A stretch of 64,000 nucleotides of DNA, taken from Siphonodentalium dalli. Lineage: Eukaryota; Mollusca; Scaphopoda; Gadilida; Siphonodentaliidae. Where the stretch lies: contig CP136068.1 in the NCBI GenBank assembly GCA_032622095.1, positions 52,508,443 through 52,572,442 of the forward strand, in the 5' to 3' direction. The first letter of the stretch is position 1. Each line of letters begins with the position of its first letter. Position numbers and translations under genes: made by a program. Positions 4,547 to 9,545 of this stretch are shown here, piece by piece. Below the pieces are notes generated by a model, which was not told where the DNA came from, ran no database searches, and was given only the letters and a program-made list of their open reading frames with translations.

Positions 4547-4670
4547 CCTGAGACATGAAGAATGGTATCCTAAACCTGCCGGACAGAACCCGATCCCTCA
4601 GGGTTTGTAGATTGTGACCATCAAATGGCAGCGCACCACACACCAATACATACAGGACAACACCCAAACT
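4547..4670 (-). CDS. SIK2: SIK-family kinase, internal exon D (helix F; source of the splice-site array)
   Basis: A 124-nt exon starting [18 protein letters not shown] and ending [10 protein letters not shown] plus one base. It continues exon C in phase 0 (DIW|SLGV). SIK3 in vertebrates has nearly the same residues here, so the identity is secure. The acceptor is TTTCTTTCTTTACAG at 4671-4685, identical to that of the adjoining tandem units. The donor read as AGG|GTTCGT is not consensus, but it gives phase 1 so that the next exon can supply the rest of the expected Glu of (E)CEHLIR. Past this point the frame leaves SIK homology (GSYTNETH, then stop), so the exon ends here. Its first 42 bp are the template of the repeat at 4671-9545. 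Confidence 0.92.
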
Positions 4671-7600
4671 CTGTAAAGAAAGAAAAACATGTCTATACAG
4701 CGCACCACACACCAATATATACAGGACATGAACACCCAAACTCTGTAAAGAAAGAAAAACATGTTTATACAGCGCACCACAAACCAATATATACAGGACA
4801 TGAACACCCAAACTCTGTAAAGAAAGAAAAACATGTATATACAGCGCACCACACACCAATATATACAGGACATGAACACCCAAACTCTGTAAAGAAAGAA
4901 AAACATGTTTATACAGCGCACCACACACCAATATATACAGGACATGAACACCCAAACTCTGTAAAGAAAGAAAAACATGTTTATACAGCGCACCACACAC
5001 CAATATATACAGGACATGAACACCCAAACTCTGTAAAGAAAGAAAAACATGTTTATACAGCGCACCACAAACCAATATATACAGGACATGAACACCCAAA
5101 CTCTGTAAAGAAAGAAAAACATGTTTATACAGCGCACCACACACCAATATATACAGGACATGAACACCCAAACTCTGTAAAGAAAGAAAAACATGTTTAT
5201 ACAGCGCACCACAAACCAATATATACAGGACATGAACACCCAAACTCTGTAAAGAAAGAAAAACATGTTTATACAGCGCACCACACACCAATATATACAG
5301 GACATGAACACCCAAACTCTGTAAAGAAAGAAAAACATGTTTATACAGCGCACCACACACCAATATATACAGGACATGAACACCCAAACTCTGTAAAGAA
5401 AGAAAAACATGTTTATACAGCGCACCACACACCAATATATACAGGACATGAACACCCAAACTATGTAAAGAAAGAAAAACATGTTTATACAGTGCACCAC
5501 ACACCAATATATACAGGACATGAACACCCAAACTCTGTAAAGAAAGAAAAACATGTTTATACAGCGCACCACACACCAATATATACAGGACATGAACACC
5601 CAAACTCTGTAAAGAAAGAAAAACATGTTTATACAGCGCACCACACACCAATATATACAGGACATGAACACCCAATCCCTGTAAAGAAAGAAAAACATGT
5701 TTATACAGCGCACCACACACCAATATATACAGGACATGAACACCCAAACTCTGTAAAGAAAGAAAAACATGTTTATACAGCGCACCACACACCAATATAT
5801 ACAGGACATGAACACCCAAACTCTGTAAAGAAAGAAAAACATGTTTATACAGCGCACCACACACCAATATATACAGGACATGAACACCCAAACTCTGTAA
5901 AGAAAGAAAAACATGTTTATACAGCGCACCACACACCAATATATACAGGACATGAACACCCAAACTCTGTGAGGAAAGAAAAACATGTTTATACAGCGCA
6001 CCACACACCAATATATACAGGACATGAACACCCAAACTCTGTAAAGAAAGAAAAACATGTTTATACAGCGCACCACACACCAATACATACAGCGCACCAC
6101 AAACCAATATATACAGGACATGAACACCCAAACTCTGTAAAGAAAGAAAAACATGTTTATACAGCGCACCACACACCAATATATACAGGACATGAACACC
6201 CAAACTCTGTAAAGAAAGAAAAACATGTTTATACAGCGCACCACACACCAATATATACAGGACATGAACACCCAAACTCTGTAAAGAAAGAAAAACATGT
6301 TTATACAGCGCACCACACACCAATATATACAGGACAACACCCAAACTCTGTAAAGAAAGAAAAACATGTTTATACAGCGCACCACACACCAATATATACA
6401 GGACATGAACACCCAAACTCTGTAAAGAAAGAAAAACATGTATATACAGCGCACCACACACCAATATATACAGGACATGAACACCCAAACTCTGTAAAGA
6501 AAGAAAAACATGTTTATACAGCGCACCACACACCAATATATACAGGACATGAACACCCAAACTCTGTAAAGAAAGAAAAACATGTTTATACAGCGCACCA
6601 CACACCAATATATACAGGACATGAACACCCAAACTCTGTAAAGAAAGAAAAACATGTATATACAGCGCACCACACACCAATATATACAGCGCACCACACA
6701 CCAATATATACAGGACATGAACACCCAAACTCTGTAAAGAAAGAAAAACATGTTTATACAGCGCACCACACACCAATATATACAGGACATGAACACCCAA
6801 ACTCTGTAAAGAAAGAAAAACATGTTTATACAGCGCACCACACACCAATATATACAGGACATGAACACCCAAACTCTGTAAAGAAAGAAAAACATGTTTA
6901 TACAGCGCACCACACACCAATATATACAGGACATGAACACCCAAACTCTGTAAAGAAAGAAAAACATGTTTATACAGCGCACCACACACCAATATATACA
7001 GGACATGAACACCCAAACTCTGTAAAGAAAGAAAAACATGTTTATACAGCGCACCACAAACCAATATATACAGGACATGAACACCCAAACTCTGTAAAGA
7101 AAGAAAAACATGTATATACAGCGCACCACACACCAATATATACAGGACATGAACACCCAAACTCTGTAAAGAAAGAAAAACATGTATATACAGCGCACCA
7201 CACACCAATATATACAGGACATGAACACCCAAACTCTGTAAAGAAAGAAAAACATGTTTATACAGCGCACCACACACCAATATATACAGGACATGAACAC
7301 CCAAACTCTGTAAAGAAAGAAAAACATGTTTATACAGCGCACCACACACCAATATATACAGGACATGAACACCCAAACTCTGTAAAGAAAGAAAAACATG
7401 TTTATACAGCGCACCACACACCAATATATACAGGACATGAACACCCAAACTCTGTAAAGAAAGAAAAACATGTTTATACAGCGCACCACAAACCAATATA
7501 TACAGGACATGAACACCCAAACTCTGTAAAGAAAGAAAAACATGTTTATACAGCGCACCACAAACCAATATATACAGGACATGAACACCCAAACTCTGTA

Positions 7601-9545
7601 AAGAAAGAAAAACATGTTTATACAGCGCACCACACACCAATATATACAGGACATGAACACCCAAACTCTGTAAAGAAAGAAAAACATGTTTATACAGCGC
7701 ACCACACACCAATATATACAGGACATGAACACCCAAACTCTGTAAAGAAAGAAAAACATGTTTATACAGCGCACCACACACCAATATATACAGGACATGA
7801 ACACCCAAACTCTGTAAAGAAAGAAAAACATGTTTATACAGTGCACCACACACCAATATATACAGGACATGAACACCCAAACTCTGTAAAGAAAGAAAAA
7901 CATGTTTATACAGCGCACCACACACCAATATATACAGGACATGAACACCCAAACTCTGTAAAGAAAGAAAAACATGTTTATACAGCGCACCACACACCAA
8001 TATATACAGGACAACACCCAAACTCTGTAAAGAAAGAAAAACATGTTTATACAGCGCACCACACACCAATATATACAGGACATGAACACCCAAACTCTGT
8101 GAGGAAAGAAAAACATGTTTATACAGCGCACCACACACCAATATATACAGGACATGAACACCCAAACTCTGTAAAGAAAGAAAAACATGTTTATACAGCG
8201 CACCACACACCAATATATACAGGACATGAACACCCAAACTCTGTAAAGAAAGAAAAACATGTTTATACAGCGCACCACACACCAATATATACAGGACATG
8301 AACACCCAAACTCTGTAAAGAAAGAAAAACATGTTTATACAGCGCACCACACACCAATATATACAGGACATGAACACCCAAACTCTGTAAAGAAAGAAAA
8401 ACATGTTTATACAGCGCACCACACACCAATATATACAGGACATGAACACCCAAACTCTGTAAAGAAAGAAAAACATGTTTATACAGCGCACCACACACCA
8501 ATATATACAGGACATGAACACCCAAACTCTGTAAAGAAAGAAAAACATGTTTATACAGCGCACCACACACCAATATATACAGGACATGAACACCCAAACT
8601 CTGTAAAGAAAGAAAAACATGTTTATACAGCGCACCACACACCAATATATACAGGACATGAACACCCAAACTCTGTAAAGAAAGAAAAACATGTTTATAC
8701 AGCGCACCACACACCAATATATACAGGACATGAACACCCAAACTCTGTAAAGAAAGAAAAACATGTTTATACAGCGCACCACACACCAATATATACAGGA
8801 CAACACCCAAACTCTGTAAAGAAAGAAAAACATGTTTATACAGCGCACCACACACCAATATATACAGGACATGAACACCCAAACTCTGTAAAGAAAGAAA
8901 AACATGTTTATACAGGGCACCACACACCAATATATACAGGACAACACCCAAACTCTGTAAAGAAAGAAAAACATGTTTATACAGCGCACCACACACCAAT
9001 ACATACAGGACAACACCCAAACTCTGTAAAGAAAGAAAAACATGTTTATACAGCGCACCACACACCAATATATACAGGACATGAACACCCAAACTCTGTA
9101 AAGAAAGAAAAACATGTTTATACAGGGCACCACACACCAATATATACAGCGCACCACACACCAATATATACAGGACATGAACACCCAAACTCTGTAAAGA
9201 AAGAAAAACATGTTTATACAGCGCACCACACACCAATATATACAGGACATGAACACCCAAACTCTGTAAAGAAAGAAAAACATGTTTATACAGCGCACCA
9301 CACACCAATATATACAGGACATGAACACCCAAACTCTGTAAAGAAAGAAAAACATGTTTATACAGCGCACCACACACCAATATATACAGGACATGAACAC
9401 CCAAACTCTGTAAAGAAAGAAAAACATGTTTATACAGCGCACCACACACCAATATATACAGGACATGAACACCCAAACTCTGTAAAGAAAGAAAAACATG
9501 TTTATACAGCGCACCACACACCAATATATACAGGACAACCTCCAA
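4629..9545 (-). repeat. Minisatellite of 67 duplicated SIK splice acceptors (69/72-bp units)
   Basis: Seen directly on the minus strand: each unit is AGTTTGGGTGTT(CAT)GTCC..GCGCTG (42 or 45 bp, copying the start of SIK exon D) followed by a 27-bp intron end, TATAAACATG then TTTTTCTTTCTTTACAG. I count 67 full units plus a truncated one at the upstream end: 61 of 72 bp, six of 69 bp lacking the CAT triplet as the real exon does, and three extra 24-bp partial insertions. The proximal unit is exon D itself. Substitutions are few, indicating recent amplification or homogenisation. No unit has an out-of-frame indel or a stop in the kinase frame (1,674 codons open across array plus exon). Units near 8940-9030 share variants with the true exon and look ancestral. 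Confidence 0.95.

Follow-up and report, generated by a model that had tools for sequence, protein, structure and literature searches.

The 64,000-nt stretch of DNA analysed here, referred to below as the window, carries on its minus strand part of a kinase gene in which one intron consists largely of a tandem array of splice acceptors. The features at this locus, in the order in which the gene is read, are the following.

49359 to 49422, minus strand: exon A (VMETKNMLYLVSEFAPKGEIF).
27381 to 27496, minus strand: exon B (ELIATRGKM...HRDLK).
10000 to 10170, minus strand: exon C (AENLL...DFG...APE...DIW), with the donor TGG|GTAAGC.
4671 to 9999, minus strand: intron C–D, 5329 bp in total, 91% of it array.
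4521 to 9611, minus strand: reading frame of exon D, open through the entire array and 1696 codons long from stop to stop.
4629 to 9548, minus strand: tandem array of 67 acceptor-bearing units and a 5′ exon-only half copy.
9498 to 9548, minus strand: 5′-most half copy, exon-like, without a pyrimidine tract or CAG.
9114 to 9209, 6654 to 6749 and 6057 to 6152, minus strand: 96-bp units with an internal 24-bp repeat.
4629 to 4697, minus strand: terminal unit with the real acceptor, comprising 27 nt of intron end (4697 to 4671) and the first 42 nt of exon D, without a CAT triplet.
4547 to 4670, minus strand: exon D (ending ...FFMSQ), 124 nt, with the donor AGG|GTTCGT.

Exons A–C were located with a SIK3-like probe covering the kinase domain and some of the sequence after it, with which no credible N-lobe or downstream exon was found in the window. 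Exons A–D join in frame into a single open stretch of 158 residues containing HRDLKAEN, DFG and APE. Among solved relatives it matches SIK3 best (254.6 bits), followed by MARK4 (244.8 bits); the activation loop follows SIK3, whereas MARK4 has TFCG there. Since the translation of exons C and D, as well as that of exons A–D, matches SIK3 without gaps, the terminal array copy, with its junction at 4670, is identified as the start of exon D. The family assignment (SIK), the exon C donor (placed there at 9999, with the exon ending at 10000) and a true exon body behind the array had all been proposed in an earlier note on this DNA, and each is borne out by these results.

Judging from the exon coordinates, the other introns of the gene span approximately 22 and 17 kb, lengths that would make a compact lancelet gene less likely. 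Tandem repeats account for 17178 of the 64000 bases of the window (TRF), so the region as a whole is prone to the growth of repeats. Intron B–C contains a 25-bp minisatellite of approximately 244 copies (20408 to 26507, consensus AATAAAGAGGTGGGGCTCAGATGAT) with a strong GC skew, and a 42-bp array with runs of telomere-like TTAGGG/CCCTAA lies at 27549 to 27737, about 50 bp upstream of the exon B acceptor. Two similar 103-bp tandem pairs (14080 to 14275 and 15151 to 15346), about 1.07 kb apart, share a consensus with inverted repeats and possibly represent a mobile element.

The array presents 67 polypyrimidine/AG acceptors in tandem on the minus strand, with junctions running from 9479 to 4670. 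With up to three mismatches allowed, the 27-base core of the acceptor was matched 67 times, always on the minus strand and always inside the array, and not once in 100 shuffles of the sequence; splitting that strand at every tract likewise yielded 67 units, and the copy number given in the earlier note is thereby confirmed by both routes. Tandem Repeats Finder reports a period of 72 at 98–100% matches in its main rows, and the junction-to-junction intervals (n = 66) measure 72 bp in 58 cases, 69 bp in five and 96 bp in three. AG precedes 66 of the 67 junctions, the remaining one being CAT|AG. The usual unit, TATAAACATGTTTTTCTTTCTTTACAG followed by AGTTTGGGTGTTCATGTCCTGTATATATTGGTGTGTGGTGCGCTG, joins the last 27 bp of the intron to the first 42–45 bp of exon D, exactly as had been described. 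The presence of the array was also correctly recognized, but its 5′ edge requires amendment, being an exon-only half copy without an acceptor that ends at about 9548. The flank upstream of this half copy bears no clear likeness to the intronic part of the unit, and a search there for an acceptor relic gave a match of only four bases (P = 0.051).

Fifteen unit types were distinguished, with 41 of the 67 units identical. A CAT triplet is found in 61 units, giving the usual unit 45 exon bases, and is absent from six (42 bases), namely units 7, 8, 10, 21 and 44 and the terminal unit, as it is from the 5′ half copy; the terminal unit and the half copy differ from the inner units. The triplet corresponds to an extra His in helix F relative to the family, while the terminal copy keeps the sequence of SIK3. 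Because SIK3 reads SLGVVLY at this place, the CAT-less form is probably ancestral and the triplet would have spread through the array later. Local clustering of like variants was not significant, either as adjacent pairs (two, P = 0.18) or within three units (three, mean 2.3, P = 0.40). On inspection, CTGTATA occurs twice in the unit at a distance of 24 bp, a spacing that would account for the three 96-bp units. In a post hoc observation, TGTATATA was counted 73 times in the array (4629 to 9548, minus strand) against four times in the rest of the minus strand, and it is absent from the terminal unit; TGTANATA turns up in 0.8% of shuffled units. These UGUAUAUA / TGTATATA sites resemble a Pumilio element.

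All 67 tracts, array copies and terminal copy alike, have 14 pyrimidines in the 16 positions of the scored stretch, compared with 14 for the acceptor of exon B and 12 each for those of exons A and C. Of the 1443 YAG sites that the minus strand carries beyond the array, 23 reach 13 pyrimidines, and the one further YAG inside the array has eight. With a donor matrix, the phase 1 donor of exon D scores −0.9, against 5.1, 5.8 and 3.5 for exons A–C. The best GT within the unit, TTG|GTGTGT, scores 1.5 with the same matrix; from its sequence it may be used weakly, as it exceeds the exon D donor, but it falls below those of exons A–C, and a donor minisatellite of the 6-16 type was rejected on this basis. 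Tandem duplicated (cassette) exons were also discarded, since the unit stops 42–45 nt into the exon and lacks the exon D donor, as were NAGNAG acceptors, which have their two AGs three bases apart at a single acceptor: 65 of the 67 junctions read CAG|AG, where the AGs are two bases apart, and the acceptor tracts are 69–96 nt apart. No branch point was assigned, as the TATAAAC preceding the tract does not have the U that the branch-point consensus places two positions ahead of its A. Three units folded together were not more stable than their shuffles (z = 0.37, with 123 of the 200 shuffled sequences folding as well or better), and an Rfam search of the 64,000-nt window gave no matches at gathering scores.

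Every one of the 67 junctions is in frame and free of stops to the exon D donor, adding between 0 and 1603 residues, if the CAT|AG unit is read at its aligned position and not at the shifted AG. This is easily explained by chance, and frame openness was rejected as evidence of coding use, since 26% of shuffled units have no stop in a given frame, and the array itself can be read through in three of its six frames. Units of 72, 69 and 96 bp add 24, 23 and 32 residues, respectively, so that the multiples of 23–24 residues previously predicted hold for the first two lengths but not for the third. Insertion of one extra unit shortens the Pfam kinase match, which ends at profile position 194 instead of 207, and lowers its score from 160.5 to 155.2 bits. 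A weak match of an array peptide to MoaF_C was dismissed (19.3 bits, below the cut-off of 22.1).

The reading that we favour, and consider probable, is a tolerated expansion with use of the terminal acceptor, of the kind termed 'mirages'. In the amphioxus Adh3 and globin genes, this name stands for intron/exon boundaries, those on the acceptor side among them, that have been duplicated in tandem in the manner of a minisatellite (PMC3087553). Here the duplicated segment, which reaches from the 3′ end of one intron into the beginning of the following exon of a SIK-family kinase gene, would have expanded in tandem to 67 copies through slippage or unequal exchange. Splicing would link exon C chiefly to the terminal acceptor, since no other copy continues directly into the remainder of the exon, with its donor at a distance of 124 nt; the upstream copies would be disfavoured because in each of them a new acceptor tract follows after 42–45 nt of exon. 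The array would thus leave along with the intron, mostly neutrally, and any slip to an upstream acceptor would insert a multiple of, for the most part, 23–24 residues just after DIW, in helix F, probably yielding inactive kinase. This reading is supported by the array anatomy and counts together with the open stretch of exons A–D best matched by SIK3, by the SIK3 sequence retained in the CAT-less terminal copy and by the abundance of tandem repeats in the surroundings. The neutral expansion offered as an alternative in the earlier note is indeed a better default than the functions suggested there (tuning of splicing, a splicing-factor sink or timer, isoforms), since the mirage papers report or infer continued regular splicing (PMC3087553, PMC3902484): Adh3 data and RT-PCR of globins suggest that it proceeds despite the mirages (PMC3087553). 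On the other hand, upstream acceptors are transcribed first, which counts against a preference for the terminal one, and the argument from exon definition is weakened because the exon D donor is poor and the array acceptors equal the terminal one.

Full neutrality is not assured, as duplicated acceptors lower splicing in vitro, in extracts (PMC5389562). There, two strong acceptors allow two U2AF or U2 particles to bind one pre-mRNA, which is spliced poorly, and splicing rises several-fold when a competitor oligonucleotide reduces double occupancy by U2AF35. In globin duplicates whose upstream site is followed by 14, 55 or 205 nt of exon, splicing is very inefficient and takes place at the downstream site only (PMC5389562). 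The GloC-2x3′ss and β-globin duplicates described in that text resemble the SIK array in having identical tandem acceptors, the upstream ones with limited exon, although they are artificial substrates with two copies in extracts and the SIK array has 67 in a genome. Since the globin duplicates use the downstream site, the SIK terminal acceptor should win, perhaps at a cost in efficiency.

Such a cost could in principle make the array a brake dependent on copy number, in which several U2AF/U2 snRNP assemblies on its 67 uniform tracts would slow removal of intron C–D, with kinase output falling as the array grows. The in vitro findings speak for this, which makes it a serious rival, but we consider it unlikely, given that the substrates held two sites rather than dozens, that mirages are reported to leave regular splicing undisturbed (PMC3087553, PMC3902484) and that the array shows no sign of selection for copy number. 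Slightly less likely again is its extension to a brake or timer encoded by copy number, in which dozens of near-equal acceptors occupied at once would delay or misdirect the removal of one intron, so that gain and loss of units would set the output of a signalling kinase between individuals, or between cells if the array were somatically unstable. As a side variant, array-retaining transcripts could bind Pumilio proteins through their 73 UGUAUAUA sites, a suggestion that is post hoc.

Use of upstream acceptors at relevant levels, giving SIK isoforms or array-retaining mRNAs with repeated 23–24-residue inserts in helix F, appears improbable. The acceptor tracts are intact and all junctions are open to the exon D donor, but this openness is cheap, as noted above, most units carry a His that is extra for the family, and the insert interrupts the kinase core, even if the drop in the Pfam score is small. 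Least probable, by a little, is an artefact, with the length of the array misassembled or the locus being a copy that is not expressed: arrays are often mis-sized, the BflGb6 mirage having been mis-assembled in a draft genome (PMC3087553), and the N-lobe and later exons escaped the SIK3-like probe in the window, but the unit types follow an irregular order in which no mixed block longer than four units recurs, runs of the commonest type aside, which led us to reject blocks copied in an assembly tangle, and all four exons have an open frame, with neither their splice dinucleotides nor the catalytic motifs disrupted.

The choice of the spliceosome among equal 3′ sites has previously been tested with two copies in extracts, and the genome studied here offers 67 nearly identical ones. 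Located in a conserved kinase core, they allow competition between sites, exon definition and the tolerance of repeat growth to be studied in a natural experiment, and provide a clear test of a possible control of gene output by minisatellite length via splicing. Among known systems, a minisatellite in the human interferon-induced 6-16 (IFI6) transcript reportedly provides multiple splice donors (attributed to Turri, 1995); like the SIK array it multiplies one splice signal in a gene, but the signal is the donor, whereas here it is the acceptor. Intron gain by tandem genomic duplication is similar in that a duplication across a gene creates new combinations of splice sites (PMC4974935; also discussed in PMC3087553); the coding exons of the SIK locus, however, show no sign of a new intron between them, and an existing intron has been lengthened.

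The closest correspondence is with the mirages, and the earlier view that such an array was unheard of is wrong in kind: besides amphioxus Adh3 and the globins BflGb6 and BflGb9 (PMC3087553), imperfect duplications of this sort are described in lancelet PGBD5, with troponin C named as another case (PMC3902484). The SIK array fits the anatomical definition of a mirage minisatellite. Its unit spans the intron/exon boundary (27 nt plus 42–45 nt, in 67 copies), the authentic boundary lies at one end (the terminal copy at 4670, continuing into exon D), and the inner units are homogenized with distinct edges, although units 7, 8, 10, 21 and 44 also lack the CAT. Edge units similarly escape homogenization in amphioxus, where Adh3 mirage units measure 10–72 bp, and BflGb6 likewise repeats the 3′ end of an intron with the 5′ part of an exon (PMC3087553). 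The BflGb6 units, however, are of 150–160 bp in six and three copies, compared with 69–96 bp in 67 copies within a kinase core (PMC3087553). The 67 copies far exceed those of BflGb6, the one acceptor case with copy counts in the open-licence literature searched. The mirage class, otherwise found only in lancelets in that literature, is extended by the SIK array to a kinase and to far more copies.
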